Positions 110-47,680 of a DNA stretch of 47,961 nucleotides are shown in pieces. This DNA is from Lachnospiraceae bacterium. Its GTDB lineage: Bacteria > Bacillota > Clostridia > Lachnospirales > Lachnospiraceae. The notes under the pieces were generated by a model. It ran no database searches. It saw nothing but the letters and a program-made list of their open reading frames with translations, and was not told where the DNA came from. The stretch covers positions 1-47,961 of the forward strand of contig JAFZVZ010000015.1 in NCBI GenBank assembly GCA_017617545.1. Reading direction: 5' to 3'. The first letter of the stretch is position 1, and each line of letters starts with the position of its first letter. The translations under genes were made by a program, and so were the position numbers.

Positions 110-691
110 ATGGACGATCAGACTTTGCTCAACCTGTTACAGACCGATGCCGAGCAGGGCATGCGGCAAATGATCCACATCTACGGTCCTGCCGTGCACA
201 AGATCTGCGCCTCATTTCTCGCAGGGCGCCCTCGCGAGGAACTGGAGGAAGCGGAGGCCGATGTCTTTGTGAGAATATGGAAGTACCGGGGGAGAATTCA
301 GCTGAGCGAGACATACCCGCTTCGCAGCTATCTCTTCGCAATCGCACGCAACGTCTCAAAAGACCGGCTTCACCGCACGCGACCGGACACGCTCTCCCTG
401 GATGCGGCGCTCGAGGACGGCATCGAGCCGGAAGCATCGGACAACACGGAGGATGCAGCGGCTGAGGGCTGGCTGAAAGATGCCGTCGCGGCATCCGTCG
501 CCGAGCTCGACGAACCTGCGCGAAGCATTTTCCGCGAACGCTACTACGAAAGACGCAGTGTGAAGGAAATTGCGGCACACCTGGGGCTCCCCGAGAAAAA
601 AGTGGAAAACATTCTTCACCGCGACCGCGCGAAGTTGCGCGCGCTCCTCGCGGAGAAAGGAGTTACCTCATATGAAGAATTCGGAAAATGA
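110..691 (+). CDS. ECF-type RNA polymerase sigma factor (sigma-70 family)
   Basis: A 193-residue protein with the two-domain plan of extracytoplasmic-function sigma factors. Region 2 lies at about residues 20-90, with the typical stretch SYLFAIARNVSKDRLHR. An acidic linker follows, then region 4 at about 130-185 with a helix-turn-helix around VKEIAAHLGLPEKKVENIL. These proteins direct RNA polymerase to a small stress or envelope regulon and are usually held inactive by a membrane anti-sigma protein. The start has a good ribosome-binding site (GGGAGGG, 7 bases upstream). The last 20 bases overlap the next gene, a single-pass membrane protein, which fits a sigma/anti-sigma pair made by coupled translation. 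The target regulon cannot be read from this window. Confidence 0.9.
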   Translation: MDDQTLLNLLQTDAEQGMRQMIHIYGPAVHKICASFLAGRPREELEEAEADVFVRIWKYRGRIQLSETYPLRSYLFAIARNVSKDRLHRTRPDTLSLDAALEDGIEPEASDNTEDAAAEGWLKDAVAASVAELDEPARSIFRERYYERRSVKEIAAHLGLPEKKVENILHRDRAKLRALLAEKGVTSYEEFGK

Positions 692-2003
692 CAACCTCAC
701 ATTCATAGACAATACCGAAGCCGTATTGGACAATCCTCCGACAGCGGAGGAGGCCGACCGGATCCTGGCCGAGGCAGAAGCAGAGATCGCGGCTGCGGAG
801 ACCGATGCCCCGGAGTACAGTGAATTCGATGAGACGGCCGTGACGGAGCTGGCGCTTAAGATGATGCGAGCAGCCGAAACGGACACAACTGCTGATACAG
901 ATGCAGCTGTCGCCGGATCCGCAACGGAAAACACCGGCAAAACTGTCGCGATCCTCAGGCCCACCGTCCGCAGACGCCGGAAGGTTCTGCGCGTAGCGCT
1001 TGTCGCAGCCTGCATCGCCGTGCTTTTGTTCGGCACATTTGTCGCCGCAGCAAATGTCATCTACGATGTCCGTTTCACGCAGCTGATCGGCGTTGAGGGA
1101 ACCATGACCGAGCTGGAGAACGGATATTTTCAGATCGGGCTTTCCAAGACGATCGACGACCTGACTGTGACCGTGGTGGACGCCATCGGCGACGCCCGGG
1201 TTCAGTGGGTTGAAATCCGTACGAACCGCAAGCTCGCGGACGGCACACCGGACGGCTGGCTGGAGCAGGCCTTCACGGATGACGGACTCTACATCAATAC
1301 TCCGGCACTGCCTGACGAGTATGCCGCCACCGGCTACCTCGTCAAATACTATGACGGTTCCCTGCTCTCGACGGTATTTTCCGACATCGACTGTACGGAG
1401 CGCTATCAAAAGCATCTGGTGAACACGCCTACGCTCGACATGAGAGGAAGCCTTATTCCCTTCTGCCGCGACGGTTATCTCTGGTACATGATGGAGACCA
1501 GTTGCGAGGAGGATATCAACCGCAGTTTTACGCATCTGGAGATCAACTTTAACACCTCCGCTCAGGATGATGTAATGTTTGAATTCAACTGGTGCAACAA
1601 TTATAAATCCGACAAGGAGACGTTCCGCGTGAATAAATCCGTCGGACAGTCGAAGGTTAAAAAGGTTGTTCTGACCGGCGCAAGCATGTTCCTGTACACC
1701 AATGGCGGCTACAACGATATCCGCCTGGATTCCGTCAAGCTTGAGGACGGCACGGTTCTGCACACAAATCAGTCGGAAAATGAGGTCGCACCGGGCAAGT
1801 CCGGCGCCTACTCCTTCATGGATGACGGACGGCTGGGCTGCAGCGGCAGCGCCGATGATGACGGCATCTTCACCTCCTCCAATGTGGAATACTCTCTCCT
1901 GCCGGGCGTCACCTTCCAAACGCCGCAGTCCATGACCTCGCTCATCCCCATGGACAAAGTCGTCGCGATCACGGTCAACGGCGTGGAGATCAGTCTGAGA
2001 TAA
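672..2003 (+). CDS. Single-pass membrane protein, probable anti-sigma factor (DUF4179-like)
   Basis: A 443-residue protein if translation begins at the ATG at 672, which has AAAGGAG 8 bases upstream and lies inside the end of the sigma gene. A longer frame open from 570 lacks a comparable site. The first ~95 residues are acidic and Ala/Glu-rich, and would be the cytoplasmic, sigma-binding part. A basic patch (RPTVRRRRK) precedes one membrane helix at about residues 104-130. The remaining ~310 residues would lie outside the cell and are rich in beta-type sequence. This plan and the partner gene match clostridial anti-sigma proteins with a DUF4179-like domain. The family assignment is from memory of similar pairs. 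The signal sensed outside is unknown. Confidence 0.7.
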   Translation: MKNSENDNLTFIDNTEAVLDNPPTAEEADRILAEAEAEIAAAETDAPEYSEFDETAVTELALKMMRAAETDTTADTDAAVAGSATENTGKTVAILRPTVRRRRKVLRVALVAACIAVLLFGTFVAAANVIYDVRFTQLIGVEGTMTELENGYFQIGLSKTIDDLTVTVVDAIGDARVQWVEIRTNRKLADGTPDGWLEQAFTDDGLYINTPALPDEYAATGYLVKYYDGSLLSTVFSDIDCTERYQKHLVNTPTLDMRGSLIPFCRDGYLWYMMETSCEEDINRSFTHLEINFNTSAQDDVMFEFNWCNNYKSDKETFRVNKSVGQSKVKKVVLTGASMFLYTNGGYNDIRLDSVKLEDGTVLHTNQSENEVAPGKSGAYSFMDDGRLGCSGSADDDGIFTSSNVEYSLLPGVTFQTPQSMTSLIPMDKVVAITVNGVEISLR

Positions 2004-2080
2004 CAGCTTGCTGTGGGGGCTGCCGGGGTCCTGATCATCAGGCTTCGTCCCCGGCACAAAAGAAAACAGGCATGCAAAAA

Positions 2081-2972: not shown

Positions 2973-3118
2973 TGTTGTCGTTCCTTTCCTTACTCTTCGC
3001 GCATCGCCCGCGGGCGTCTGCGGCGAAAGTCGTCAACAGTGTATCACAAGGCGTTTTCAATGTATAGCGGATTTTTTACGGAAAATGTTTTTTTCGCTCC
3101 GGATTTTCCCATTTTCTC

Positions 3119-6458: not shown

Positions 6459-6595
6459 TCAGTTTACAGACTTTTAACAGTTTCACCTCGATTAATTCGC
6501 AAACATCTCGTAATTCGTTCCGGAAAATGACGGATTATTTTACTAAACAACAGTTTTCGCTTTTCCGTAGCAGCGCGGTACAGTGCCCTCTGCGT

Positions 6596-8247: not shown

Positions 8248-8299
8248 GGGAAAATGACTGTTTTATACTTATTCGAACTATTAGCTGTACTTATGATTT

Positions 8300-10454: not shown

Positions 10455-11807
10455 TCACTCGCCGAGTCTTGTCATAAGCTCCGCGCGAAGTGCCTCGTAG
10501 CCGGGCTTTCCGAGAAGCGCGAACATGTTCTTCTTGTAGCTCTCAACGCCGGGCTGGTTGAACGGATTGACCGCAAGCATGTAACCGCTCACGCCGCACG
10601 CGAACTCGAAGAAGTAGAACAGCTGACCGAGGAAGAACTCGTTCTGCTCGGGGATGTTCACCACAAGGTTCGGCACACCGCCGTCCACATGCGCAAGCTG
10701 CGTTCCCTTCATCGCGCTCTTGTTCACGAAATCCACCGTCTTGCCGGCAAGGTAGTTCATGCCGTCAAGGTCGACAGGCTCCGCCTCGAGAACGATCTCC
10801 TCACGGCTCTTGTCAACCGCGAGCACGGTCTCGTACATGATGCGCGCGCCGTCCTGGATGAACTGGCCCATCGAGTGCAGGTCGGTCGTGAGATCGACGC
10901 TTGCCGGGAAAATACCCTTCTGGTCCTTGCCCTCGCTCTCGCCGTAGAGCTGCTTCCACCACTCGCTCACATAGTGAAGCGACGGTTCGTAGTTCGCAAG
11001 CACCTCAACGCTCTTGCCCTTGCGGTAGAGGATGTTGCGCACTGCCGCGTAACGAAGGGCATCATTTTCCGAAAAATCCTTGTTGATGCAGATCTCGCGC
11101 ATGCTTGCCGCACCCGCCATCAACGCGTCAATATCAGCGCCGCTCACAGCGATCGGCAGAAGACCTACCGCCGTCAGAACGGAGAAACGACCGCCGACAT
11201 CATCCGGCACCACGAAGCTCTCGTAGCCTTCCTCGGTCGCAACCTGCTTGAGGGCTCCTCTCGCCTTGTCGGTCGTCGCGTAGATACGCTTGTTGGCCTC
11301 CTCGCGGCCGTACTTCTTCACGAGCAGCTGCTTGAACACGCGGAACGCGATCGCCGGCTCCGTGGTCGTGCCCGACTTGCTGATGATGTTGACCGAGAAA
11401 TCACGGTCGCCGATCACATCGATCAGGTGCTTAAGATACGTCGAGCTGATGCTGTTGCCCGCGTAGTAGATCTCGGGCGTCTTGCGCACCGACTTCGGCG
11501 CGTTGTTGTAGAAGTTGTGGCGAAGGAATTCGATCGCCGCACGCGCGCCGAGATAGGAACCGCCGATGCCGATCACAACCAGCACTTCGGAGTCCGACTG
11601 GATCTTCGCAGCCGCCTTCTTGATGCGTGCAAACTCATCCTTGTCATACGCTGCCGGGAGATCGATCCAGCCGAGGAAATCGTTCCCCGCGCCCTGTCTG
11701 CCCAGAAGCTCCTCGCGAGCGGCAAGCGCCTGACCTTCGATCAGCGCAAGCTCCTGCTCACTCATAAACCGCGACGCCAACGCCGCGTCAAATGTAACAT
11801 TTTCCAT
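10455..11807 (-). CDS. pgi: Glucose-6-phosphate isomerase
   Basis: A 450-residue protein, the usual length for the Firmicutes enzyme, from the ATG at 11807. The longer open frame adds an unrelated, Arg/Ala-rich leader. It interconverts glucose 6-phosphate and fructose 6-phosphate in glycolysis and gluconeogenesis. Visible family signatures are [29 protein letters not shown] (phosphate-binding loop), [20 protein letters not shown] with the catalytic Glu, and a C-terminal [12 protein letters not shown] containing the catalytic Lys. The ribosome-binding site is weak. The gene is alone on its strand here, with a shared terminator downstream. Confidence 0.96.
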
Positions 11808-11986
11808 GGTGTACTTACCAGCCTTTCCCGGACACGCCCGCATCGCCCGGGCCGCCTCAGCCGCCCATTTCATGCCGTGTCCGCTATACCGTGAGCATTA
11901 TAGCAAACCGCCCACATCAATGCAAGCACAAACTCGTGCGAAAAATGCCCCTTTTCTTTTGGAAAATGATGCGTCAAAATAATTAC

Positions 11987-12149: not shown

Positions 12150-13274
12150 ATGGCAACTGACAACAGGGACCCGCGCACCCGGCGTCCTTCCTCCCAGGGA
12201 GGAAACCGACCGACCGGCACAACGCGCAGCACGGGAGCACCGCGCTCCGGCGGATCTGCGGGAACGCCGCGCAGCAGCTCATCCGGCTCGCCCGCGCGGC
12301 GCAAGAAGAAAAAGAAATCAGCATTCAAACGGTTTATCGACAGGAATTTTACGCTTTGCATGGTCGTCCTGCTGGCGATCCTCGCGCTTCTCATTTTCCT
12401 GATCATACACGGAATGAAGGGCGACAGCGGTGAAACGCCGGGCAAGACCGTGACACCCACATCGGCACCGACCGAAGGTGTCAAGGAGGCAACCGCAACG
12501 CCGACCGTCGCAGCTCCTACCGCTACGCCGGAGCCGGCGGATTCCCCGACACCGACACCGGAACCGACGCCGTATGTGTACGGCCTGTGCTCCAGCGTCA
12601 CCCTCAATCAGGATTCCGAGCCGGTGGACGGCGATGACTGGGAGATTGACTACCTGATGCTCGTCAACTGGTCGCACCGCCTCAAATACAAGGGCAATCC
12701 GGAAAATCTCGTCCGCATCGACGAGGTGCTGACCGCGGATTTCTACACGATCCAGAACCCGAACACCGTCAACAAAAGCGATCTGAACTTCATCATCGAG
12801 AAGGAGGAGGACAACTACGGGCGCGGCAACCGCGTGGCGCTCGAGCACCTCGACGAGATGTGCCATGATTACCATGAGGCGACCTCCTTCGGCGTTAAGA
12901 TCTCCCAGACCGGCGCATACCGCAACTACGCAACGCAGGATCGCTTCTGGCAGAACCGCGACAAGAGCATCAACCCGCCGCGGACCGTTCCGGGCAACGC
13001 CAGCGAGCACCGCACGGGCCTCGGATTCGACATCTGGACCCTCGACGGCGGCGGAAACGACACCACCTGGTTCCGCGAGAACTGCTACAAGTACGGCTTC
13101 ATTTTACGCTATCCGTCGGACAAGAAGAAGATCACCGGCGTCACCTACGAACAGTGGCATTTCCGCTACGTCGGGCTGGAGGCTGCCAAGGAGATCTTCG
13201 ACCTCGGCTACTGCCTCGAGGAGTACATCGCCTACAAGAACGGTGAGGACCTCTCGACGCTGCCGAAATATTAA
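12150..13274 (+). CDS. Membrane-anchored D-alanyl-D-alanine carboxypeptidase, VanY family
   Basis: A 374-residue protein. Residues 1-60 are a basic, disordered cytoplasmic segment. A membrane helix at about 67-88 (LCMVVLLAILALLIFLIIHG) anchors it. A Thr/Pro linker (about 95-145) leads to a VanY (PF02557) domain. The zinc-site motifs are GNASEHRTGLGFDIW (His and Asp ligands, about 285-295) and YEQWHFRYVG (final His, about 333-340). It should trim the terminal D-Ala from peptidoglycan stem peptides outside the membrane. No vancomycin-resistance genes surround it, so it is probably a housekeeping wall enzyme. AGAAGGGGG lies about 10 bases upstream of the start. Confidence 0.88.
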   Translation: MATDNRDPRTRRPSSQGGNRPTGTTRSTGAPRSGGSAGTPRSSSSGSPARRKKKKKSAFKRFIDRNFTLCMVVLLAILALLIFLIIHGMKGDSGETPGKTVTPTSAPTEGVKEATATPTVAAPTATPEPADSPTPTPEPTPYVYGLCSSVTLNQDSEPVDGDDWEIDYLMLVNWSHRLKYKGNPENLVRIDEVLTADFYTIQNPNTVNKSDLNFIIEKEEDNYGRGNRVALEHLDEMCHDYHEATSFGVKISQTGAYRNYATQDRFWQNRDKSINPPRTVPGNASEHRTGLGFDIWTLDGGGNDTTWFRENCYKYGFILRYPSDKKKITGVTYEQWHFRYVGLEAAKEIFDLGYCLEEYIAYKNGEDLSTLPKY

Positions 13275-13321
13275 GGAAACGCTGATCCGATCGGCATTTT
13301 CCGATCTGAGCACACAAACAC

Positions 13322-13475: not shown

Positions 13476-14261
13476 TCACCGGCCCATCCGCAGATGATAC
13501 ATCAGGATGGCCGCTGCCACGGCCGCGTTGAGAGACTCCGCCTGCCCGTCCATCGGGATGCGGATGCGCACGTCTGAGAGCACCGTAACGCCGTCAGAGA
13601 GGCCGTTGGCCTCGTTGCCGATCAATATGCCTGCCTTGTCCCCGTAGGACGCCTCCGTGTACGGAACCGAGCCCTGCAGGTGCGCCGCATACAACTTCAC
13701 GCCGCGCTTCGTAAGCTCCCTGAGCGTCTTCGGAAAATCCTCTGCGTAGCAGAACGGAACCCGCAGTATCGCGCCCATCGTCGAGCGCACGACCTTCGGG
13801 TTAAACGTGTCGACCGAGTCCGCCGAGAGAATGATGCCGTTCATGCCGGCCGCCTCCGCGGTTCGCATGATCGTTCCGAGGTTGCCCGGGTCACGCAGGC
13901 TCTCCAGCAGAAGAAGCCTCGTCGTATCGCCGGCGATCATGTCCTCGACCTTGTACTCCGGCATGCGCACGATCGCGAGCACTCCCTGGGGCGTCACCGT
14001 CTCTGCAACGGCGCAAAATGCCGCGTCCGAGACGATCTCCCAGTCACACGAGAGCATCATTTTCCGTTCCGCGTCCGCAAGCTCCGCCGCTCCGCTCTCC
14101 GACCAGTACGCTTTAACCAGATATTCCGGTCTCTGCGTCAGGATCTCGAAGAACATTTTCCGACCCTCGCAGACGAACACGCGGTCCGCCTCGCGGGCGC
14201 TGCGCTTCTTAAGTAGCGTCTGCAGATATTTCAGTTGTGGGTTTGTCTTGGATGAGATCAT
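13476..14261 (-). CDS. TrmH/SpoU-family RNA 2'-O-ribose methyltransferase (rRNA, RlmB-like)
   Basis: A 261-residue protein. The N-terminal domain (about 1-95) is an RNA-binding substrate domain beginning ISSKTNPQLKYLQTLLKKRS. The C-terminal SPOUT knot domain carries the three SpoU motifs: LRDPGNLGTIMRTAEAAG, IGNEANGLS, and IRIPMDGQAESLNAAVAAAI. It transfers a methyl group from S-adenosylmethionine to a ribose 2'-OH, most likely in 23S rRNA. The exact target site is not readable. It starts 16 bases after prfA with its own ribosome-binding site (GGGAGAGG), as the last gene of the termination cluster. Confidence 0.9.
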   Translation of the reverse strand: MISSKTNPQLKYLQTLLKKRSAREADRVFVCEGRKMFFEILTQRPEYLVKAYWSESGAAELADAERKMMLSCDWEIVSDAAFCAVAETVTPQGVLAIVRMPEYKVEDMIAGDTTRLLLLESLRDPGNLGTIMRTAEAAGMNGIILSADSVDTFNPKVVRSTMGAILRVPFCYAEDFPKTLRELTKRGVKLYAAHLQGSVPYTEASYGDKAGILIGNEANGLSDGVTVLSDVRIRIPMDGQAESLNAAVAAAILMYHLRMGR

Positions 14262-21185: not shown

Positions 21186-25049
<3,864 letters not shown>

Positions 25050-31131: not shown

Positions 31132-31545
31132 TCACCGCAGGAAGCAGCAGACAATGTTCGCGAGGATCAGCAGGTGCAGCACGATGTGGTACATGTCCGG
31201 CACAAGGCGCGTATCGCTTTTTCGGAAAATGCGCACTGTCCCTTTGAAGCAGTCATTGTACCCCTGCAGCTTCCTCTCGCTCGCGCCGAAGATCGTGTAG
31301 TACCAGTGGCACTTATACTGCACCGCCGCCCAGAGGAGCAATATCCCGAGCAGGACCCAGCGTCCCACGGGAAGGTACGCGTGGTACGCGATCAGCCCCG
31401 CGCTGTAGAGACACAGCGCGAAGAACTCCGCGCTCTTGATGCCCATGCCCTCGACGAGAAGGATTTTCCCGAACCTGTACGTTGTTATGCATCCGAAGAA
31501 CCAGATCCACAACAACACCTGGATGATAATGACAGTGATCAGCAT
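31132..31545 (-). CDS. Small integral membrane protein
   Basis: A 137-residue protein from the ATG at 31545 (GGGGGTAG 7 bases upstream). It has about four membrane helices, beginning MLITVIIIQVLLWIWFFGC and ending YHIVLHLLILANIVCCF. A soluble loop contains RKLQGYNDCFKGTVRIF. I do not recognise its family. It lies 31 bases after the LRR/SLH surface protein gene and is probably in the same transcript. Confidence 0.7.
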   Translation of the reverse strand: MLITVIIIQVLLWIWFFGCITTYRFGKILLVEGMGIKSAEFFALCLYSAGLIAYHAYLPVGRWVLLGILLLWAAVQYKCHWYYTIFGASERKLQGYNDCFKGTVRIFRKSDTRLVPDMYHIVLHLLILANIVCCFLR

Positions 31546-31576: not shown

Positions 31577-33907
31577 TCATTTTCCGGACTGCTTCTTTCT
31601 CCACAGGATAATACCTGCCGTTGCAGCAACAATGACCGCAAGGATGATCAGGAGAAGTGTTGTGTCAAAGCGGCCCTTGCCCGCTCCCTCGTTCTTCTCC
31701 GCGCTGCCGTCCGGGCTTACGGTCGAATTGCCCTCGCTCTTCGACGCATCGGAGGCCGGTGTACCGTCCGCTCCCGGTGTCAGTGTAAGATCCGTGCCGG
31801 GTGTCGCATCCGCGCCGGGCGTCACATTCGCGCCGGGTGTCACATCCGCTCCGGGCGTCAGCGTGAGCGTCCCCGCGTCCGGGGTCAGCTCCGTTGCTCC
31901 CGTCGGGTCCGCGGCGGGCGTCGGGGTGCCCGAAGGCGTACCGGAAAGCTCTGTCGTCGGGATCGGCGCATCCGAAGGTGAACCCGAAGGCGTGTCCGAA
32001 ATCTCACCCGGCAGTGTCGGCGTTCCCGCTGCCGGCGTCACTGTCTTCTCCGGCGCCGGGGTCGGCGTGTTCGACGGCTTCGGTGTCTCCGCGGCCGTCG
32101 GATCCGGCGCCGTGGTCGGAGTGCTGGTCGGTGCTTTCGTCGGCTCCTTCGTAGGTTCCTTCGTCGGTTCCGGCGTTGCCGTCGGGGCTTTCGTCGGTGT
32201 TGGCGTCTGCGGGGTGACATCCTTGTTCACTTCCTTGAGGCGCTTCAGCATATGCTCGAAATCCTCGCGCGTCGCGTTGCCGTGAGGATCGATCCGCTGC
32301 TCCTCCCGCGTGGAACCCGGCTCGCCTATACCCTCCATGATATCCCAGGTGATCGCCCACGTGATGGCCTCCCACGCGTACTGGTCGATATCATAGTAAT
32401 CGATAAAATCATCGCTTCTTCCGAAGTCGATCGCTCTCTTGTAACCTTTGTACTCCGAGTATCTCATCAGCATGAGCGCAAGATCCTGCCGTGAGATCCA
32501 CTGCCCCACGCCGAACGTGTCGGAGGAGATGTCCGGAGTGCCGAAGCAGATGGCGTACTGCTCACCCCAGATCACGGCATCGGTGTACGAAGCGCCCGAC
32601 TTGACATCCGTAAACCGCGTCTTCAGGCCGCTGACATCCGGCTTGCCCTCCATCTCGTACAGCGTCTGCACAACCTTCTCGCGCTTGACGAAATCGCCCG
32701 TCTCCGACGAGTTGTCGTTGCCGGACTGGCCGTTGCCGCCCTGCCCCGAGTTGTTCGAGGAGGATTCGGTGACAAGCGTCACCGTGTCGTCAAAGCAGAG
32801 GAAATACAGATTGTCCCCGCCGGTGGACGTATCGCCGCCGTAATCGATCGTCCAGGAGTGGCCCTTGCACACATCGTACTCCGCCTTCTTCGTGCCTTCC
32901 TTGTACGTCTTCACAAGGAGCGGATTATCGCTGATGTTCAGCGTCGTGAACGGGTTGGTGAAGGCCTGCAGAAAATGCATCTGCGGATTGTTCGACAGAT
33001 CAAGCGAAGTGATCCCGTTGCAGGCACAGTCCAGATAGAACAGCTTCGGATTGGCGGATACGTCGAGCTTCATGATCTGGTTGTAACTGCAGATCAGTTT
33101 CTGCAGTTCCTTATTCTTGCTGACATCCACGGAGGTTGCCTGGTTGTAGGCGCAGTTGTAGTACTGAAGCCCCGGGTTGTGACTGACGTCGATGCTTCCA
33201 AGCCCCGGGTTGAACCAGACATCCAGGCGCTTCAGCTTCGGACAGCCGGACACGTCGAGCTTTGTGAGATGATTCTGGAACGCGTCCAGGTGCGACAGCT
33301 TCGGGTTGTTGCTCAGATCGAGCGACGTGAGCTCGCACGTGCCGCAGGTCAGGTGCTCCAATTTCGGATTGTGCGTCACGTCCAGCGTCTTCAGCGGGTT
33401 GGTATTGCACTCGATGAACGCCATGTCCGGGTTGGAGGACACGTTCAGCGAGGTCAGTTGGCAGTCGTAGCAGTACACCCACTCCAGCTTCGGATTGGCC
33501 GAAAAATCAAGCGTGGTAAACAGGTTGCCGGAGCACCACACGCCGTGGAGCTCCTTGTTGTTCGAAAGGTCCATGGACGCGATCGCGTTGTCCTTGCACC
33601 ACAGCCCCTCCAGGTTGACGAAGTACTCGACACCTTTCACCGAGGTGACGCCCATGCCTTCGCAGTAAATGTTGATCACGGAGCCGAGCTCGCCGGCGTC
33701 CAGAACGCCGTTTCCGTCCTTGTCGTAGTCCGGCCCGGAGATCACGGCCCGGAAGACCGGATCCGGAAAATTCGTCTCGTTGATCTCGACCGGTTCACCG
33801 TCGGCACGCGCCGTCCCGACGCCGCTGCCCGGGATCGCGCCCCCGAGCGCAAGGAGCATTGCCACGCACACGGCAACGATCCGCACCAAAGCATTCCTCT
33901 TTTTCAT
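31577..33907 (-). CDS. Secreted leucine-rich-repeat protein with SLH-like repeats, Thr/Pro stalk and C-terminal membrane anchor
   Basis: A 776-residue surface protein. A signal peptide (about 1-35) precedes a calcium-loop-like DYDKDGNGVLDAGE segment. About eleven 21-residue leucine-rich repeats of the LDLSNNPKL type then run to roughly residue 335. Residues about 410-545 resemble S-layer-homology repeats (FTDVKSGASYTDAVIWGEQY). A long Thr/Pro/Ala/Gly stalk (about 550-735) leads to one membrane helix (LLLIILAVIVAATAGIILW) and a short basic tail. It therefore seems held by a membrane helix, not by sortase. It may bind proteins, sugars or host surfaces. The start is the ATG at 33907, or a GTG three codons earlier. 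Confidence 0.85.
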   Translation of the reverse strand: MKKRNALVRIVAVCVAMLLALGGAIPGSGVGTARADGEPVEINETNFPDPVFRAVISGPDYDKDGNGVLDAGELGSVINIYCEGMGVTSVKGVEYFVNLEGLWCKDNAIASMDLSNNKELHGVWCSGNLFTTLDFSANPKLEWVYCYDCQLTSLNVSSNPDMAFIECNTNPLKTLDVTHNPKLEHLTCGTCELTSLDLSNNPKLSHLDAFQNHLTKLDVSGCPKLKRLDVWFNPGLGSIDVSHNPGLQYYNCAYNQATSVDVSKNKELQKLICSYNQIMKLDVSANPKLFYLDCACNGITSLDLSNNPQMHFLQAFTNPFTTLNISDNPLLVKTYKEGTKKAEYDVCKGHSWTIDYGGDTSTGGDNLYFLCFDDTVTLVTESSSNNSGQGGNGQSGNDNSSETGDFVKREKVVQTLYEMEGKPDVSGLKTRFTDVKSGASYTDAVIWGEQYAICFGTPDISSDTFGVGQWISRQDLALMLMRYSEYKGYKRAIDFGRSDDFIDYYDIDQYAWEAITWAITWDIMEGIGEPGSTREEQRIDPHGNATREDFEHMLKRLKEVNKDVTPQTPTPTKAPTATPEPTKEPTKEPTKAPTSTPTTAPDPTAAETPKPSNTPTPAPEKTVTPAAGTPTLPGEISDTPSGSPSDAPIPTTELSGTPSGTPTPAADPTGATELTPDAGTLTLTPGADVTPGANVTPGADATPGTDLTLTPGADGTPASDASKSEGNSTVSPDGSAEKNEGAGKGRFDTTLLLIILAVIVAATAGIILWRKKQSGK

Positions 33908-33984
33908 CTGTAACACGTTTCCTTTCGCTTACTGCATATGCACTTATTCGTCGTCATGCGGATGCATTTTCCGACGTAAAATTC

Positions 33985-34806
33985 TCACTTTCTCCGGTAC
34001 AGCTTAGCCGGGCGATGCCCCGCCCCCTGTGTGTACTCGTCGGTCTCGACCACGTAATCGCTGACCTTGCGGCGGAAATTCGCCGGAAGAACCTGAATGT
34101 TCATGATCGTCTCCTGCACCTTCTGAAGCTCCGTGAGTGTAAACCGCTCCGGCAGGAAATCAAACAGCGTCTCATAGTTTCGCGCGCCTTCTCTCAGCGC
34201 CGTGAGCGCCGTGGCGATGATCCGCGCGTGATCAAACGCAAGCCCGCCGCTCTCGAGCACGCGGAACGACGTCTGCGAAAAATGTGTCTCCTCCTCCCGG
34301 AGGACCGCCCTAAGCTTCGTGTCGCCGTACTCGAGGGACAGGCAGCTGTTCCCGTCCTCGCCGCGCTCGAACCGGATGTCGAACCACTCCGCGTCGGAGG
34401 CATCGTCGCCGCCGACCTGGCGCACGGACTCCTCGCTGATGATCGAGGCGAACGCGTGCGAGATGACCCAGCCGCGCGGGTCGCGCCCGGGCTCGCTGAA
34501 CACGCCGACCGGCATGAGCGAAACCGGCGTGATCCCGGCCTCCTCCGTCACCTCGCGGAGCGCGCAGTTTTCCACGGTCTCGTCGGGTCGCAGAAAACCG
34601 CCGGGAAGCGCCCAGCAATCCCGGAAGGGATGTACCGCGCGCTTCACAAGCAGGATGGACAGCTTGCTCACCGAGTCCATCTTGTAGTTTTCATTTTCCA
34701 CCGAACGGATCACAAAGGCAACGATATCCGCCGTCACGGACGGACGGGGATACTTGCCGATATCATACTGTGAGAGGTATTCACTCTCGCTCTGCTGCTT
34801 CTTCAT
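33985..34806 (-). CDS. nrtR: NrtR-type regulator: Nudix domain plus winged helix (NAD metabolism)
   Basis: A 273-residue protein starting at the ATG at 34806, which shares a base with the nadR stop (TGATG). The Nudix box is intact at residues 70-92: G70, E76, R84, E85, E88, E89, G91. The C-terminal part (about 205-273) has the winged-helix signature of NrtR: FTLTELQKVQETI, NFRRKV and GHRPAKLYRRK. NrtR represses NAD biosynthesis genes and senses ADP-ribose. The full Nudix box leaves open that this one also hydrolyses ADP-ribose. It is the last gene of the NAD-salvage operon and probably regulates it. Confidence 0.85.
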   Translation of the reverse strand: MKKQQSESEYLSQYDIGKYPRPSVTADIVAFVIRSVENENYKMDSVSKLSILLVKRAVHPFRDCWALPGGFLRPDETVENCALREVTEEAGITPVSLMPVGVFSEPGRDPRGWVISHAFASIISEESVRQVGGDDASDAEWFDIRFERGEDGNSCLSLEYGDTKLRAVLREEETHFSQTSFRVLESGGLAFDHARIIATALTALREGARNYETLFDFLPERFTLTELQKVQETIMNIQVLPANFRRKVSDYVVETDEYTQGAGHRPAKLYRRK

Positions 34807-35819
34807 CACTCTTCTCCGATCAGTTTTTTCACTTCGCTGGCTGCCTTCTCCAGCCGCTCCGAGTACTCGCCGCTGATGCACGTAAACTCGCGCCCGTGCG
34901 TTCGGAGCAGCTCCTTGATGCGCTCGCTGTATTTGATCCGGTTGTCGCGGATCTCCTCGCTGCGCCCGCCCTCCAGAAAGAACTCGACGTCAGGCTCTAA
35001 GAACAGGATCAGATCATACCGGTTCAGCGCGTCGATCGCGTCGGCGAGCACCCGGTTCGCCTCGATCCGCGGGTCATCCCCGTCCAGGAAATCCATGAAG
35101 AACCGTGTGATCAGCGCGTCCGTATCGATGAACAGAACCTTGCTCCCGCGCTCGAGCGCCTCCGTCTCATTCAGCTTGTGGCGAAGCAAAATCTCCGTGT
35201 AATCCTCCGGGATCATCATCGTGTCCGTGCCGCTTTTCTCCGACAGCTCGCGACCGGCCTCATCGATGTATTCCGCGTTGAACAGCTGCGCGAGATGTAT
35301 CGTCAGCGTGCTTTTGCCCGTGCTCTCGCCGCCCATCAGGAGCACCTTCTTCGTGTAGTAGGGACGCACGACCTTCGGGAGCTGATCCCAGTGCGCGTAC
35401 GGATTTTTCCGGATCTCCGTGGAGCTGATCCCGTTTCTTCGGAAAATGAACATCTCGCTTTCCGGGTAGCATACGTTCCAGAAGCTGTCCGTTCCGTAGT
35501 CGCTTCCGCAAAATACGACGTCGATCTTCTTCCCGATCCGTCTCTTGATGTCATCCGCGTCCTTCTGCCAGTACTCCCTCGTGTACTCCTCCTTGGTCGC
35601 GGCGTCGTCGCCGATCGTAAGGATCGTAACATTGCCGACATGCTTCGTGAGCCGGTACAGCCAGCGGTAGCGGATCCGCCCGTCGATCTCCCCGCGGTTT
35701 CCGCCGATGCTTAAGACGATATACAGCTCCCTGCACATCGACGCAGCCTTCAGGATGCATTCCACATGTCCCATATGAAGCGGATTGAACGATCCGCCGT
35801 ACATTCCGACCTGATACAT
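34806..35819 (-). CDS. nadR: NadR-type bifunctional NMN adenylyltransferase / nicotinamide riboside kinase
   Basis: A 337-residue protein. The N-terminal nucleotidyltransferase has GGSFNPLHMGH (8-18) and ISSTEIR (131-137). The C-terminal kinase has Walker A GGESTGKST (163-171). It phosphorylates nicotinamide riboside to NMN and joins NMN to AMP to make NAD. There is no N-terminal DNA-binding domain of the enterobacterial NadR kind, and regulation is left to the coupled nrtR. It follows pnuC by 25 bases, with GAGGTGA before the start. Confidence 0.93.
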   Translation of the reverse strand: MYQVGMYGGSFNPLHMGHVECILKAASMCRELYIVLSIGGNRGEIDGRIRYRWLYRLTKHVGNVTILTIGDDAATKEEYTREYWQKDADDIKRRIGKKIDVVFCGSDYGTDSFWNVCYPESEMFIFRRNGISSTEIRKNPYAHWDQLPKVVRPYYTKKVLLMGGESTGKSTLTIHLAQLFNAEYIDEAGRELSEKSGTDTMMIPEDYTEILLRHKLNETEALERGSKVLFIDTDALITRFFMDFLDGDDPRIEANRVLADAIDALNRYDLILFLEPDVEFFLEGGRSEEIRDNRIKYSERIKELLRTHGREFTCISGEYSERLEKAASEVKKLIGEE

Positions 35820-35844: not shown

Positions 35845-36579
35845 TCAGCCTTCCGCGGCCTCTCCGACCTGCTCCGCGGCCTTCGCGCTGTTCCGGCTCG
35901 CCTCGCGGTACCACCGCACGAACATGATGATCGCATTGACCAGGTAGATGCTCCACATCGCGAGCGTCGCGATCGACTCACCGCCGTTTGCGAAATCCAC
36001 GCCCCACATGATGACCGTAACCACATCGACGATGATCCAGAGCACCCACTGCTCCGTCAGCCGCCAGATGGACAGAACCTGCGCCACAACCGAGACGACC
36101 GTGCTCATGCTGTCCACGTACGGCAGCTTACCGCCGAGCTTCGCAAGCAGCAGCCCGTACAGGAAGATCGCCACGCCCGTGATTGCGTATACGACGATGC
36201 CTTTCTTCAGAGGAAGGCACTTCTTCACCACCTCACCGGTGTCATCGTTCATGTGCTTCTTCCACGCAAACCAGCCGACAACACCCATCGGCAGGTAATA
36301 GAGCACGTTCAGCATGACCTCGCCGTAGTATTTTGCGGAAAATGCGATCACGGCGTACAGCGCCGCGTTGACGAGCCCGAACAGAAACGACGACCGCTTC
36401 CCCTTGCCGGTCAGGATCACGCACCACACACCCGTCAGCGCCGCGACCAACCCGATGATGCCCTCACCCCAGTACAGGGAGAGCCCCAGGATCACCGCCG
36501 TCGCGAACATAAGCCACGCAACCTCCCAGCGTTTCCAGCCGGTGATCTCACTCTTCAGATACTGTTTCAGTCCTCTCAT
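35845..36579 (-). CDS. pnuC: Nicotinamide riboside transporter PnuC
   Basis: A 244-residue protein from the ATG at 36579 (AAAGGCGG upstream). The longer open frame has a Cys/Thr-rich, non-homologous leader. It has seven or so membrane helices with the PnuC signatures LGLSLYWGEGIIGLVAALTGVWCVILTGKGKRSSFLFGLVNAALYA (shown by its parts GLVAALTGVWCV and FGLVNAALYA) and a Trp-rich C-terminal half (WRLTEQWVLWIIVDVVT). It takes up nicotinamide riboside by facilitated diffusion, trapped by the NadR kinase encoded next. Confidence 0.92.
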   Translation of the reverse strand: MRGLKQYLKSEITGWKRWEVAWLMFATAVILGLSLYWGEGIIGLVAALTGVWCVILTGKGKRSSFLFGLVNAALYAVIAFSAKYYGEVMLNVLYYLPMGVVGWFAWKKHMNDDTGEVVKKCLPLKKGIVVYAITGVAIFLYGLLLAKLGGKLPYVDSMSTVVSVVAQVLSIWRLTEQWVLWIIVDVVTVIMWGVDFANGGESIATLAMWSIYLVNAIIMFVRWYREASRNSAKAAEQVGEAAEG

Positions 36580-36622: not shown

Positions 36623-37570
36623 TCACACGATAATTTCCCCTCCGAACCCGTCGCGGAGATGATTGTCCGCGTCGTACACCAAACCCCTGGAATACCCGTA
36701 GTCGCACATTTTCGTACTACGGCCGTAGAATTGTATGATCTCGCCCTTTTGCGACACATAAACTCCGTCGCTGCAGTGGCAGAATTCGTAATCGTAAAAT
36801 CCTCTCGTAAAGAGCAGTTCCGGGTCATCCTCCCGGATCACCGCCTCGTACGGGATCGTCTGTTCCTCCGCAAACTCGCTGACCGGCGAACACACCATAA
36901 ACCCGACCTTCGGAACACCGATGCCGATGGCGTACTCTAAGAAGCGGTGCGCCTCCTCCGGCGAATTCAGGTAATCCCGAAGAAGCATCGTGTTGAACAC
37001 CCACAGATCCCGGTACGACACGCTCGAGACGATCTCCCGCAACTCGTCGCTCCCGGGGATGTCGTCGTTCCCGAACAGTCTCCGGTTCACCGTGTCATTG
37101 TAGTGATGGCGGCTTACGTGGATCGTCTCGAGATGAACAAGGTCCCTGATCTCGTGCATCCGCCGCAGTCCGATCCCGTTTGTGGATATCCCGATCTCGA
37201 GCTCATACCCGAAGATCTCATACAGAATGCTGATGACCTCGTTCAGAAGAACCACGTCCGTGAACGGCTCCCCGCCGGTGATCTTCACGCCGCGGACACG
37301 GTCCTCCGCCTTCAGCCTGCGCATCACCGCGGCGAAGACTTCCGGATCGATCCGGTTCTCCGTCTTTGTCCCCTTCGCCGCGCAGAACCGGCAGTGCCCC
37401 GGGCAGTATGACACGGGACACACGGAAAGCTGCAGCTGCACGTTATCCGGCTTCGGGCGGTAATGAACGCCGTCCGGCGAGCAGATGTAGTTCTTCACGC
37501 GAACCGGCTTTCCGAGAATGTCGATGATCTTTGTTCTGTTTTCGCAAGTCCTGCAAGTGTCGATGGTCAT
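36623..37570 (-). CDS. Radical SAM protein within the NAD-salvage operon
   Basis: A 315-residue protein from the ATG at 37570 (GAGGCGG upstream). The radical SAM cluster motif is CPGHCRFC (Cys56, Cys60, Cys63), followed by the SAM-binding GGEP (99-102). Extra cysteines precede it (CRTC at 6-9, Cys30, Cys51) and follow it (CHC and MCDYG near the C-terminus), which could hold a zinc site or a second iron-sulfur cluster. The protein is short, with no recognisable accessory SPASM domain. It lies 43 bases before pnuC and 25 after the LRR_5 gene, so it is very probably co-transcribed with NAD salvage genes. Its reaction is unknown. No peptide substrate gene is obvious. Confidence 0.85.
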   Translation of the reverse strand: MTIDTCRTCENRTKIIDILGKPVRVKNYICSPDGVHYRPKPDNVQLQLSVCPVSYCPGHCRFCAAKGTKTENRIDPEVFAAVMRRLKAEDRVRGVKITGGEPFTDVVLLNEVISILYEIFGYELEIGISTNGIGLRRMHEIRDLVHLETIHVSRHHYNDTVNRRLFGNDDIPGSDELREIVSSVSYRDLWVFNTMLLRDYLNSPEEAHRFLEYAIGIGVPKVGFMVCSPVSEFAEEQTIPYEAVIREDDPELLFTRGFYDYEFCHCSDGVYVSQKGEIIQFYGRSTKMCDYGYSRGLVYDADNHLRDGFGGEIIV

Positions 37571-37595
37571 TTTCCGCCTCTTCCACAATACCGTC

Positions 37596-38603: not shown

Positions 38604-38685
38604 CGTCCTGTCCTTCCTCTTTCCGTATTCGGAAAATGCTGCCTGCTCCGCCAATCCCCGTCCTCCCGGGACATCGGTTCCCCCG

Positions 38686-39033: not shown

Positions 39034-39058
39034 GTGGAAAATGAAGTCCCGCCGAAAC

Positions 39059-39628: not shown

Positions 39629-39631
39629 TTC

Positions 39632-41517: not shown

Positions 41518-42657
41518 TTACTCCGTGACTGCGTCCTCCGAAGCGCTGAAATCCGTATCCATCGCCACCTGGAGCGTATATTCCGGGAACTCCTCCTGCA
41601 CCTTCTCGCACACTTCCCGGTATACCTCGCCCCTGTCCGGCGCGTCGAAGCTGACGACAAAGTCAAACCGGATCGATTGTTCCGCCTTATCCAGGTAGAA
41701 GCCGTGCATCTGGAGCACGTACTGCACTCCGTTCACGATCGTCGACACCTTGTTTCTTGCCTTGACTGCCTCGGGATCCTTCGTATTGTACGAATACACA
41801 CCGATGGCCGTAAGGATCACGGCATGATCCTGATATACCTTCACCTGGATTTTCCGCAGGAGTCTGTCCAGATCGTCCGCCGACAGCGTGTCCGGAACCT
41901 CAATGTGAACCGATCCGTTGAATGCGTCCGGTCCGTAATTGTGCATGACGAGGTCGTAGACACCGCTCACATCGGAAAATTCAAGGATCGTCGCCTTGAT
42001 ATTCCGCGCAAGCTCCGCATCCACGTTCTCACCGAGGATCTTCGAGATCGTCTCCCGCAGCATTTCTATGCCGGCCTTGATGATCACCAGAGCGATGATC
42101 GCGCCGAGCCATGCCTCGAGCGAGATATGGAAAATGAGGTACACCGCCGCCGCGGCAAGCGTTGACGCGGAGATGACCGAGTCGAGCACGGCATCGTCAC
42201 CGGAATTCACGAGCGAGTCCGAATTCACCTTCTTGCCGACACTCTTTACATATCGTCCGAGGATGATCTTCACGAGCACGGCAACACCGACGATGATCAG
42301 CGAAGCAGTACTGTAATCCGGCGTCTCCGGATGGATGATCTTCTTCACGGATTCGATGAACGCGGTCACACCGGCATACAGCACGATCACCGAAATGATC
42401 ATCGCGCTCAGGTACTCAACCCTGCCGTAGCCGAACGGATGCTTCTTGTCGGCCTTTCTTCCGGCGAGCTTGGTTCCGATGATCGTGATCACGGAACTTG
42501 CCGCGTCCGAGATGTTGTTCACGGCATCCATGACGATGGCGATCGAGTTTGCTGTCAGACCGACTACCGCCTTAAATCCCGCAAGCAGAACATTGGCCAC
42601 AATGCCGATGATGCTTGTCCTGATGATGATCTTATCCCGACTGGTGTTCTCTTCCAT
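41518..42657 (-). CDS. Cation diffusion facilitator family transporter
   Basis: A 379-residue protein with six membrane helices in the first ~210 residues and a cytoplasmic ferredoxin-like domain after. Family marks are DAVNNISDAASSVITIIG and KKHPFGYGRVEYLSAMII. The second metal motif is NSGDDAVLDSVIS, where zinc transporters usually have HxxxD, so the ion may not be zinc (iron and manganese types differ here). It exports a divalent metal in exchange for protons. It follows a 76-residue gene by 26 bases. Confidence 0.9.
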   Translation of the reverse strand: MEENTSRDKIIIRTSIIGIVANVLLAGFKAVVGLTANSIAIVMDAVNNISDAASSVITIIGTKLAGRKADKKHPFGYGRVEYLSAMIISVIVLYAGVTAFIESVKKIIHPETPDYSTASLIIVGVAVLVKIILGRYVKSVGKKVNSDSLVNSGDDAVLDSVISASTLAAAAVYLIFHISLEAWLGAIIALVIIKAGIEMLRETISKILGENVDAELARNIKATILEFSDVSGVYDLVMHNYGPDAFNGSVHIEVPDTLSADDLDRLLRKIQVKVYQDHAVILTAIGVYSYNTKDPEAVKARNKVSTIVNGVQYVLQMHGFYLDKAEQSIRFDFVVSFDAPDRGEVYREVCEKVQEEFPEYTLQVAMDTDFSASEDAVTE

Positions 42658-44177: not shown

Positions 44178-44915
44178 TCAAGTCCTCCCTACAGCACCGG
44201 TCGACAGATACTCTTCCTTCCAGTAGTCAAGATCTCCGTCGTATGCACCCACATGGATTATTTCTTCGGAAAATGCAACGATCTCCATACCGTGTTCCGG
44301 TTCCCACTCACAGTCACATTCGACGATAAACTCGACCGGACCTTCTCTGCCCTCGTCATTTCCGATCCACATCACCTTCGGATACACCCAATCAAGAATC
44401 TCCCGACCGTTCAAAGTTTCCGGCATTTTGGATACCGTATCTCCCGAGCACTCTCTGATTTCCAGGTAGTATGCCATCGCATTGTCGGCCAGACGGTCAA
44501 TTTGCTCATCACTCATACTCTGGAAGAAATCAATACATTTTTTCACGTAATCCCCGGACACGTTCAATGCACTTACGGAAACCGGCCGATCAAAAATCCT
44601 CGAGACAAATCCATAATCCTTGTCATGCTTGTACTCCGTCTTCTTCGCCCTCGGCTTCAGTTGCGCTTTCTGTTCTGATTTCAGATTTCGGAACATCCAT
44701 TTGAACTTCAGCGGATTGCAGACCGCCAGGATGCTTACGATCAGAAAAGCCGTAAACAGACCTGCCGTGACAAGCAGCGCAATCCTAGCGGATTGATTAT
44801 CCCACAGGGCAGCCAGCATAATGACCAGCAAAACATCCACCAAGGCAAAGGTGACCAACAACGCTGTTGCCTTGCCCTTGATCTCTTTTTTGATTGCCGC
44901 TGTATTGTCTTTCAT
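44178..44915 (-). CDS. Membrane protein with a C-terminal DUF6985-like domain
   Basis: A 245-residue protein from the ATG at 44915 (GGGGGTG 5 bases upstream). Two membrane helices (about 19-40 and 44-66) precede a basic linker. The C-terminal domain has VEFIVECDCEWEPEHGMEIVAF, which resembles DUF6985-type domains seen in immunity-like and phage-associated proteins. That assignment is tentative. It lies 28 bases after the cupin gene. Confidence 0.65.
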   Translation of the reverse strand: MKDNTAAIKKEIKGKATALLVTFALVDVLLVIMLAALWDNQSARIALLVTAGLFTAFLIVSILAVCNPLKFKWMFRNLKSEQKAQLKPRAKKTEYKHDKDYGFVSRIFDRPVSVSALNVSGDYVKKCIDFFQSMSDEQIDRLADNAMAYYLEIRECSGDTVSKMPETLNGREILDWVYPKVMWIGNDEGREGPVEFIVECDCEWEPEHGMEIVAFSEEIIHVGAYDGDLDYWKEEYLSTGAVGRT

Positions 44916-45527: not shown

Positions 45528-46235
45528 CTATTCTCCGTGAACCAGATCGTACGGATAATACTTCTGATCACGCAACGAAGCATCATCAAGCCCGAGAAGT
45601 TTGGCGATCGCACCTGCCTCAAAGCTCCAGTAGCCATAGTAAAGCTCCGTCTTATGGCTTCCGTACCACGCGCATTCTTTGTGTATACCGTACCATTGAT
45701 CATCCAGATACTGCTTCAACAGATCAACCGCGTTGGCTGCAGCATTTTCCGCTATCTCTTTCAACGGCTGGTATGTCTTCTTCCAGCGAAATTCAGGACA
45801 GCGCGGCTCATAAGATGTATCCAGCGCGCCGGCCAGCTGATCCACGAGGTAATCCTGATAGTCTGCTTTGCGAATCTTTCCGATCAGCTCATTGACCAAT
45901 TCGTCGTCCGCCTTAACATCCAGCAACACCGCCAGCGACAGCACATTGATCAGATCAAAATAGCTGTACCTCGGCTCCCATGTTTTCACATAATGCTTCA
46001 GCAGGTTCTCAAAGCACGGCTTTATCTCGCTGTCCTTGTTTCCTGCGCTGTACAGAAGATTGATCCTGTTTCGGTAAGATGTAAACAGGACGGCATATCC
46101 CATCTGCGCGCCGCGATCACTCTCACCTCTCTCGGCAACAACCTTCTCCACAAGCGCTTCATAATGTTCGATGTCCGCGCCGTTCTTCTGCAGTTTCTCC
46201 GCAAAATAAGTATCGTCTTTTATGGTTCCCCTCAT
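45528..46235 (-). CDS. PoNi-type immunity protein (DUF1910/DUF1911), apparently orphan
   Basis: A 235-residue, all-helical protein from the ATG at 46235 (AAGGAAAC before it). The start MRGTIKDDTYFAEKLQKN and the C-terminal YYGYWSFEAGAIAKLLGLDD followed by KYYPYDL match the two-domain PoNi family, which neutralises PoNe DNase toxins. No toxin gene or secretion-linked domain is seen nearby. It may protect against a neighbour's toxin. Confidence 0.8.
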   Translation of the reverse strand: MRGTIKDDTYFAEKLQKNGADIEHYEALVEKVVAERGESDRGAQMGYAVLFTSYRNRINLLYSAGNKDSEIKPCFENLLKHYVKTWEPRYSYFDLINVLSLAVLLDVKADDELVNELIGKIRKADYQDYLVDQLAGALDTSYEPRCPEFRWKKTYQPLKEIAENAAANAVDLLKQYLDDQWYGIHKECAWYGSHKTELYYGYWSFEAGAIAKLLGLDDASLRDQKYYPYDLVHGE

Positions 46236-46324
46236 GTTTCCTTCTCCCTGTCCGCGCTCCCGATTGCCAAAGCGCAACACCTTACGCACCGTCTTGCCGG
46301 TAAACTGCAGATGTAACTCTCCGT

Positions 46325-47680
46325 TCAATCGACGTCTCTTGTAAGATTTTTCACCCAGATGTACTTGTTGTAGTGCCATTTCAGGAACGGAACCTTAACG
46401 ACTTCATCCAGGCACATGATCACGTAAACGACAAGCACCGGCCACTTCAGCACAAAGCAGGCGATGAGCGATGCCGGGATCGCGAAGCACCATGTTGCGA
46501 AAAATACGCTTACCGCGTCATACTTCGCATCTCCTCCGGCAGGAAATACGCCGCAGGTAAAGATCGTGTTAAAGGAAAATGAGAACATGTACAGGCAGCT
46601 GAACGCCAGCATCCCGATAAGATATCCCTTGGCCGTGGCGGTCAGTTCATAGAAGAAATAGATCGGCGGTCCGACCAGCGCGATCAGCAGCATGTTCACA
46701 AGACCGTTCACAAACGCCACCTTAAAGAACCTGTCACCATACCGTTTCGCCACGTCCAGTTTCCCCGCTCCGAGCAGTTCCCCGATCATGATACCCGAGC
46801 CGCCTGCGATGCCCCAGGTCACAAAGGCGATCAACTGCTGTGCGACACTCGTGACGGAAGCTGCTGCCGTAGCGTCCGAGCCCAGACGTCCCATTATCAT
46901 GTTGTGAACCGTGATGCTTATGCCCCAGGAAAGACCGCTGGCTACGATCGGAGCGAACACCTTCCAGAAGTCCTTCTCAAAATCTTTCGAATAATAGACA
47001 AAGTTCTTAACCGACAGGTCGATTGTCTCTTTTCTCTTCGCCCATATAAGGACGATCACCAGCGACATCGCCTCTACTACTACTGTAGAATAGGCAGAAC
47101 CGTTGGCTCCGAGCGCGGGGATGCCGCATTTTCCGTATATCAGGAAATAGTCCGCCGTCATATCCACGACAACCACGATAGCCGATATCATGACACTGAG
47201 TTTCGCGTCTCCCGCGATCTTCATGTTCATCAAAAAGCACTGCGCAACCGCCGAGAAGAGATACGAGAAGCCGACAATTCGCAGATATCCCGCGCCGATG
47301 GAGATCAGGTTGCTGTCCGTTGTGTAGATCCGCATCACCTGCTCCGGGAACACAAACGCAGCGACGAAGAATAAAAGACTGATCAGGATTGAAGATCTGA
47401 TCGCCATCGCCAGAAAGCGTCCGGCATTTTTATAATCCTTCTTCCCCCAATACTGCGCGACCAGAATTCCCGCAGCACTTTTGATCGATCCGGTAAACAA
47501 TGTCATCACGAAAACCAGCTGGTTCGCGAGCGCAACTGCCGAAATCGAATCCTGGTTCAGTCTTCCGAGCATGAGCGCGTCGGACGCACCGACCAGCGAA
47601 TTCAGAAGGCTCTGTAGCGCGAGCGGTATTGCAAGAACTTTCAGTTTATCGAATAAGGCTTTTCTTTCATCCTGCTCCAT
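46325..47680 (-). CDS. MATE-family efflux transporter
   Basis: A 451-residue protein with twelve membrane helices, from the ATG at 47680 (GGGGGAC 8 bases upstream). Family marks are IPLALQSLLNSLVGASDALMLGRL in helix 1 (given here as parts IPLALQSLL and DALMLG), VAQYWGKKD after helix 2, and the repeated IASG-like element IVASGLSWGIS in the second half. It exports drugs or metabolites by sodium or proton antiport. It is first in a run of closely spaced minus-strand accessory genes. Confidence 0.9.
   Translation of the reverse strand: MEQDERKALFDKLKVLAIPLALQSLLNSLVGASDALMLGRLNQDSISAVALANQLVFVMTLFTGSIKSAAGILVAQYWGKKDYKNAGRFLAMAIRSSILISLLFFVAAFVFPEQVMRIYTTDSNLISIGAGYLRIVGFSYLFSAVAQCFLMNMKIAGDAKLSVMISAIVVVVDMTADYFLIYGKCGIPALGANGSAYSTVVVEAMSLVIVLIWAKRKETIDLSVKNFVYYSKDFEKDFWKVFAPIVASGLSWGISITVHNMIMGRLGSDATAAASVTSVAQQLIAFVTWGIAGGSGIMIGELLGAGKLDVAKRYGDRFFKVAFVNGLVNMLLIALVGPPIYFFYELTATAKGYLIGMLAFSCLYMFSFSFNTIFTCGVFPAGGDAKYDAVSVFFATWCFAIPASLIACFVLKWPVLVVYVIMCLDEVVKVPFLKWHYNKYIWVKNLTRDVD

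Follow-up and report, generated by a model that had tools for sequence, protein, structure and literature searches.

The window considered here, a stretch of 47,961 bases from a Lachnospiraceae bacterium (contig JAFZVZ010000015.1), carries rpoC and rpoB, both identified through Pfam, together with many copies of a short word, GGAAAATG/CATTTTCC, which is a candidate core of a DNA uptake sequence. An earlier note, made from the letters of this DNA alone, drew attention to the word. It reported 35 exact sites, and a recount is identical, with 18 on the forward and 17 on the reverse strand, spanning 526 to 47,134. The guanine and cytosine (GC) content is 56.1%, against the approximately 57% of that note. 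In 100 dinucleotide shuffles of the window, the mean was 1.79 sites and the largest count was 6. The longer form CGGAAAATG is present at 24 of the 35 sites, matching the two thirds estimated by eye. According to crude gene calls of our own, 24 sites are entirely genic and 11 are not, and the noncoding share of the window is 5,675 of 47,961 bases, which agrees with the claim that about ten sites fall between genes, above their share. The long site-free stretch described over nearly all of rpoC and all of rpoB (Table 1) was also found. It is real yet unremarkable on its own, because approximately 0.5 gaps of such length are expected by chance among 271 spacings with a mean of 1.4 kb.

The window belongs to a genome, here G000, of 2,732,263 bases in 45 contigs. 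The background was estimated with the same word read backwards (the reversed word) and, in samples, with an order-3 Markov model. Across G000 there are 1,672 copies of GGAAAATG (821 forward, 851 reverse), or approximately 610 per Mb, against 29 (17 and 12) of the reversed word, a 58-fold excess. Within a sample of 421,064 bases it is the most over-represented 8-mer (292 against 28.7 expected under the Markov model), and CGGAAAATG is the most over-represented 9-mer (193 against 11.7). Because these counts far exceed both the reversed-word and the Markov expectation, the observation made in the window is real and genome-wide, and the k-mer count proposed as a check has come out far from chance.

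Table 1. Sites of the word and other features in the window; coding status follows our own crude gene calls.
Feature	Position	Strand	Remark
GGAAAATG site, extends to CGGAAAATG	526..533	-	
GGAAAATG site, extends to CGGAAAATG	683..690	+	
GGAAAATG site, extends to CGGAAAATG	1775..1782	+	
GGAAAATG site, extends to CGGAAAATG	3080..3087	+	noncoding
GGAAAATG site, extends to CGGAAAATG	6522..6529	+	noncoding
GGAAAATG site	8249..8256	+	noncoding
GGAAAATG site, extends to CGGAAAATG	11063..11070	-	
GGAAAATG site	11798..11805	-	
GGAAAATG site	11961..11968	+	noncoding
GGAAAATG site	12392..12399	-	
GGAAAATG site, extends to CGGAAAATG	13295..13302	-	noncoding
GGAAAATG site, extends to CGGAAAATG	14058..14065	-	
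GGAAAATG site, extends to CGGAAAATG	14154..14161	-	
GGAAAATG site	16635..16642	-	
GGAAAATG site, extends to CGGAAAATG	18979..18986	+	
GGAAAATG site, extends to CGGAAAATG	20724..20731	-	
GGAAAATG site, extends to CGGAAAATG	20820..20827	-	
GGAAAATG site, extends to CGGAAAATG	21073..21080	+	noncoding
rpoC	21,186-25,049		Pfam identification
GGAAAATG site	21485..21492	-	3' part of rpoC
Site-free stretch	21493..30423	.	most of rpoC, all of rpoB
rpoB	25,144-29,049		Pfam identification
GGAAAATG site	30424..30431	+	
GGAAAATG site, extends to CGGAAAATG	31092..31099	+	noncoding
GGAAAATG site, extends to CGGAAAATG	31224..31231	+	
Leucine-rich repeat (LRR) protein	31577-33886	-	Pfam LRR_4, 768 residues
GGAAAATG site, extends to CGGAAAATG	31578..31585	-	
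GGAAAATG site, extends to CGGAAAATG	33965..33972	-	noncoding
GGAAAATG site	34692..34699	-	
GGAAAATG site, extends to CGGAAAATG	35441..35448	+	
GGAAAATG site, extends to CGGAAAATG	36337..36344	+	
GGAAAATG site, extends to CGGAAAATG	37568..37575	-	gene edge, not wholly in gene
GGAAAATG site, extends to CGGAAAATG	38631..38638	+	noncoding
GGAAAATG site	39036..39043	+	noncoding
GGAAAATG site	42129..42136	+	
GGAAAATG site, extends to CGGAAAATG	44268..44275	+	
GGAAAATG site, extends to CGGAAAATG	45743..45750	-	
GGAAAATG site	46574..46581	+	
GGAAAATG site, extends to CGGAAAATG	47127..47134	-	

The fullest form of the word in the window's species is TTCGGAAAATG, with GGAAAATG as its core. Over 290 aligned sites of the G000 sample, C stands at position -1 in 66% and T at -2 and -3 in 41% each, G is scarce at -4 (10%), and T at -6 and A at -7 reach 43% and 35%, the weaker preferred bases thus sitting 2 to 7 positions upstream. 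The base directly 3' of the word is A or C in 68% of these sites, and the logo as a whole is non-palindromic. Single changes within CGGAAAATG are tolerated at positions 0, 2 and 8, where the altered words still occur at 4 to 8 times expectation, less so at positions 1 and 3 (1.1 to 3.2 times), and not at positions 4 to 7 (0.1 to 1.5 times). Among the near-misses pointed out beforehand, GGAAAATA (88 against 21.4) and CGAAAAATG (49 against 8.7) are enriched in the sample, but CGAAAATG is at chance (8 against 7.2, counted only with a preceding C). A separate palindromic 10-mer of the window, TCAAGCTTGA, has a count of 6 over both strands, that is, three places, against 0.17 expected.

Placement was studied in the same 421 kb sample, where a simple gene finder of our own called 362 genes, with 87% of the bases coding. 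The 292 sites comprise 201 in coding DNA (113 sense and 88 antisense), 88 between genes and 3 across a gene edge, and their density between genes, 1.57 per kb, is about three times the 0.55 per kb within genes. Coding sites occupy all six frames, the commonest of which encode E-N and F-S, in agreement with the earlier statement that coding and noncoding DNA and several frames are involved. When synonymous codons were shuffled 30 times, a mean of 16.8 copies (range 9 to 24) was obtained against 202 in the actual genes, a 12-fold excess; together with the spread over six frames, this gives no sign of the single-frame codon-pair usage named beforehand as the outcome that would undo the observation. 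Spacing is near exponential, with a mean of 1,396 and a coefficient of variation of 0.97 over 271 spacings. Sites less than 60 bp apart form 21 pairs, where arithmetic predicts approximately 11, and 19 of these pairs are inverted (binomial P 1e-4), one pair appearing twice, at two contig ends. In uptake sequences such inverted pairs are common and some serve as terminators; T-runs were not evident by eye in the close inverted pairs that were printed. Orientation is homogeneous between stretches of 7 to 48 kb (chi-squared 14.5, 22 degrees of freedom, P 0.88), which upholds the view that the two orientations are equal, unlike those of Chi or KOPS sites. The balanced whole-genome strand count is in itself uninformative on Chi, since contig orientation is arbitrary and replichores are not known for contigs.

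Ten genomes of the TTCGGAAAATG group, aligned in the comEC region, served to measure conservation in relatives at sites with at least three aligned partners. This region was chosen because the window protein for fetching syntenic stretches was patchy in the genus. An identical word was found, on average, in 32.5% of the aligned partners for 52 motif sites, against 17.8% for 3,185 control 8-mers matched in AT content (P 1e-4, a rough value, as one place in several genomes counts several times). By a simpler count of identity, the motif scored 144 of 427, related words scored 70 of 443, and 8-mers as a whole 18.4%. No partner shares 16 of the 52 sites. The sites are kept above other sequence, yet they are turning over.

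The genus is represented by 22 genomes, G000 and 21 others, and the others hold 221 to 1,763 copies of GGAAAATG, the two lowest being G006 and G017. In 11 of the 22 (G000, G002, G003, G005, G007, G009, G010, G011, G014, G019 and G020), which make up the TTCGGAAAATG dialect, TCGGAAAAT occurs 221 to 749 times per genome against 1 to 10 for its reversed form; the other 11 have 61 to 148 against 9 to 27. A second dialect, GGnAAATG(T/C)(G/C)A, is assigned to G001, G013 and G021, where AAAATGTGA occurs 282, 171 and 167 times against 7, 12 and 7 reversed; the logo is that of G001, with G013 in agreement on fewer sites, and the remaining 19 genomes have 16 to 108 copies of AAAATGTGA, with the top values in G008 and G016. 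These last two favour GGAAAATG (41 against 9.8 and 37 against 7.2) and GGCAAATG (30 against 6.0 and 26 against 3.9), a dialect GG(A/C)AAATGC that includes two or three genomes, the third, G018, being seen only when its 20 kb were pooled with those two. GGCAAATG is also found in some genomes of the TTCGGAAAATG group, at 0 to 5 per comEC stretch. In 96 kb of G012, possibly a mixed assembly, AAATGCGG is favoured (51 against 5.8), giving a dialect nAAATGCGG. The G012 assembly, in 180 contigs, also has two PilB operons (L190, L191), as a mixed genome or a second pilus system might. G004 and G015 are left unplaced, and an 80 kb sample of G004 (L184, L110-L112) shows AGTACCAC/GTGGTACT at 16 against 1.2 and CGGAAAGC at 26 against 7.0, perhaps a dispersed repeat. 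AAATG is common to all dialects, and the flanks shift on both sides of it. A tree of pilus proteins from 17 of the 22 genomes (root uncertain; G003, G010, G013, G020 and G021 absent) separates the TTCGGAAAATG group from a group of G001, G004, G008, G016 and G018 and from a group of G006, G015 and G017, and the dialect split follows this tree.

Most matches to the window's rpoB bear the name Lachnospiraceae, and L001, a genome reached through one of the matched loci, gives counts equal to those of G017 in the genus, so that this is the most likely family. Beyond the genus, 250 family genomes were surveyed, covering 248 other genera with one genome per genus, through the word TCGGAAAATG, so that a genus with a different dialect would be missed. 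Within the window's own genus this word gave 454 and 174 copies against 1 each. It stands out in three of the 248 other genera, those of G148 (125 against 4), G164 (89 against 5) and G283 (59 against 1), where GGAAAATG itself reaches 783, 1,616 and 714 copies against 41, 82 and 15 reversed. G253 gave 47 against 10; no other survey genome exceeded 49, and many had several times their reversed control. In G253 (genus g203, a 2-contig assembly), GGAAAATG has 727 copies against 129 with balanced strands, and either a motif-bearing genus or composition may account for them. Oribacterium sinus was considered as a further bearer and rejected in favour of composition; its 1,057 copies against 104 reversed became 25 against 13.3 under the Markov model, and 104 kb of sequence showed no dialect. 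Outside the genus, the reversed word thus serves poorly as a control. No such word was found in samples of 100 to 129 kb from the family genomes G023, G024 and G033 with k-mers and spaced words, or in 35 kb of G026 with k-mers only. A spaced-pair pattern sought in 2 genomes turned up nothing.

The machinery for taking up DNA is encoded in the genus. ComEC is matched in 20 of the 22 genomes, and the two without a match are 82% and 79% complete. In G000 it is an open frame of 748 residues with Competence and metallo-beta-lactamase domains, and close to it is ComEA, which has SLBB and HHH domains; the same genome has a type IV pilus operon for PilB, PilT, PilC, several prepilins, PilD and PilM. 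The ComEC match is split over two frames in G015 (L139/L142) and G016 (L140/L141), with internal stops in G016, as a pseudogene or an assembly error would be. A GspH/FimT-like prepilin, so named by eye and chosen with an isoelectric point floor of 6, was found in the 15 genomes examined, with isoelectric points of 6.1 to 9.7; in a Pfam search of two of them, only N_methyl was above the cut-off.

Two kinds of explanation had been offered at the outset, an uptake sequence or a site bound by a protein of the nucleoid, of replication or of repair. The uptake sequence is favoured by the dialects centred on AAATG, by the absence of strand skew, by the genes for ComEA, ComEC and a type IV pilus and, more tentatively, by an excess of inverted pairs at close range; a site for another protein keeps a minor share of our belief. 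We consider it reasonably probable that the word represents the core of a DNA uptake sequence, a tag by which the cell recognizes its own DNA, and from the above we infer uptake, a receptor and a drive of the following form. A DNA receptor at the surface, most likely a minor pilin at the tip of the type IV pilus, would prefer tagged DNA, which retraction of the pilus would draw in. A single strand would then enter the cell through ComEA and ComEC and be exchanged with the chromosome by recombination. With tagged fragments taken up more often, tag-bearing alleles would spread, and tags would build up in both orientations wherever the sequence tolerates them. Were the specificity of the receptor to shift, the genome would follow, leaving clade dialects around a constant AAATG.

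Several observations weigh against an uptake sequence. G006 and G017 have GGAAAATG near the Markov expectation in samples (19 against 18.6 and 25 against 16.8), and they retain ComEC and the pilus operon. No replacement word of comparable strength appeared among contiguous 7- to 9-mers and spaced 4+4-mers in approximately 200 to 240 kb of each. G016 carries the word despite its interrupted ComEC frame, which may be an assembly error. No reader protein was found; the C-terminal G-[R/K]-x-[R/K] of FimT is present in only one of the 15 aligned pilins. Other pilins remain candidates for the reader because, according to a portion of PMC12040237, a PilW-like pilin weighs more in the DNA uptake of Streptococcus pneumoniae. 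In 40 genomes of the family, PilM did not predict the motif: 24 have a match above the cut-off, and the two show no association; many motif-free genomes have it, G164, with its 1,616 sites, and G253 have no match at an expect value of 0.001, and G283, with 714 sites, has one below the cut-off. This result weakens the tie of the motif to this type of pilus, PilB not having been sought in those genera. Finally, the word is scarce in the pilus operon. In the TTCGGAAAATG group, eight stretches with this operon, two of them incomplete, add up to 95.8 kb; coding density would predict 42 sites in them, and there are 6 (P 5e-12). For the second group, five such stretches hold 8 copies of GG(A/C)AAATG in 70.6 kb against approximately 39 predicted from 197 in 360 kb elsewhere, and the pilus operon of G000 with its downstream genes (L173:1-20000) has zero GGAAAATG in 20 kb against approximately 12 at the genome mean. 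Lower GC may contribute to this depletion. A bolder idea is that genes setting the dialect are kept out of the exchange that they govern.

The word could also be the site of a cytoplasmic chromosome protein, such as a nucleoid organiser or a replication or repair factor, selected genome-wide and with a specificity that drifted between clades. Its abundance, symmetry and conservation above controls would fit, as would the competence genes kept by the motif-free G006 and G017 and the two motif-rich genera without a PilM match over the cut-off. We hold this explanation to be unlikely, given that the near-exponential spacing shows no even spread and that, to our knowledge, known sites of chromosome proteins are far fewer or strand-biased. 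Additionally, dialects that keep a core and shift their flanks are described for uptake sequences in a portion of PMC3630211. An element like HIP1, which recurs throughout the genome, has no settled role and would be maintained by methylation, repair or recombination, would share the abundance and the occurrence in both coding and noncoding DNA. The flanks of HIP1 vary between lineages, as they do here, but the present word lacks the palindromic form of HIP1, and its dialects change on either side of AAATG, which makes such an element improbable.

A Chi-like signal regulating an end-processing recombinase is very improbable on the evidence of orientation. Chi words are over-represented and differ between species, which speaks for it; their usual excess is far below 58-fold, and the lack of any skew between stretches contradicts both Chi and KOPS. 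Hardly credible, lastly, is a bias of codons, dipeptides or composition, or the operator of a regulator such as CodY. The prominence of the E-N and F-S frames would suit a coding bias, and the reversed word does underestimate the background outside the genus, as in Oribacterium sinus; for G000, a codon or dipeptide bias is contradicted by the synonymous shuffles, the use of six frames and the threefold intergenic density. The right half of the word resembles a CodY box. The CodY consensus is a palindrome with ATTTTC as its left half, and that half is absent, not being preferred in the aligned sites.

In a portion of PMC12616744, sequence-specific uptake of self-DNA is given as known only in Neisseriaceae and Pasteurellaceae. 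Among the matches listed from the open-licence PubMed Central literature, none, judged by title and start of abstract, described an uptake sequence in Bacillota. It is slightly better than an even bet that uptake directed at self-DNA arose independently a third time, here in a genus of Bacillota that has four or more AAATG dialects, one clade from which the tag was lost and a pilus operon that shuts the tag out, and that the tag extends to three or more other genera of the family. Such a third case, in Lachnospiraceae of the Clostridia, would mean that the trait evolves repeatedly, that bacteria in which transformation is not known undergo it often or once did, and that recombination barriers in Lachnospiraceae are written in tags. 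The several dialects in one genus represent a natural series for finding the reader protein by covariation. Should an uptake sequence be the wrong reading, a protein not yet known would still shape more than 1,000 places in each of many genomes.

Compared with known systems, the word is like HIP1 of cyanobacteria in being short, over-represented genome-wide and present in coding and noncoding DNA, and unlike that palindrome in its asymmetry. Like Chi, it is an over-represented word on the scale of an octamer that differs between species; unlike Chi, it has no orientation bias between stretches in the window's genome. The DNA uptake sequence (DUS) of Neisseriaceae offers a closer likeness, being a short non-palindromic word in hundreds to thousands of copies on both strands, with dialects that follow phylogeny around a constant core (PMC3630211, in part). 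Type IV pilus genes and ComEC are likewise present in the window's genome. The core is AAATG here and CTG there, the host belongs to Bacillota, and no equivalent of the Neisseriaceae protein ComP was identified, ComP not having been sought by sequence. With the uptake signal sequence (USS) of Pasteurellaceae, the word shares weaker bases outside a core, dialects and a high copy number (PMC12616744, in part), and the receptor is unproven for the USS as for the putative Lachnospiraceae tag. The words themselves differ, and the weakly preferred bases stand 5' of the core at a distance of 2 to 7 positions, whereas those of the USS lie two helical turns downstream. Judged by its sequence, the word belongs to neither the Neisseriaceae DUS nor the Pasteurellaceae USS; its behaviour is that of an uptake sequence as regards abundance, symmetry, placement, dialects and turnover, and perhaps also its inverted pairs.

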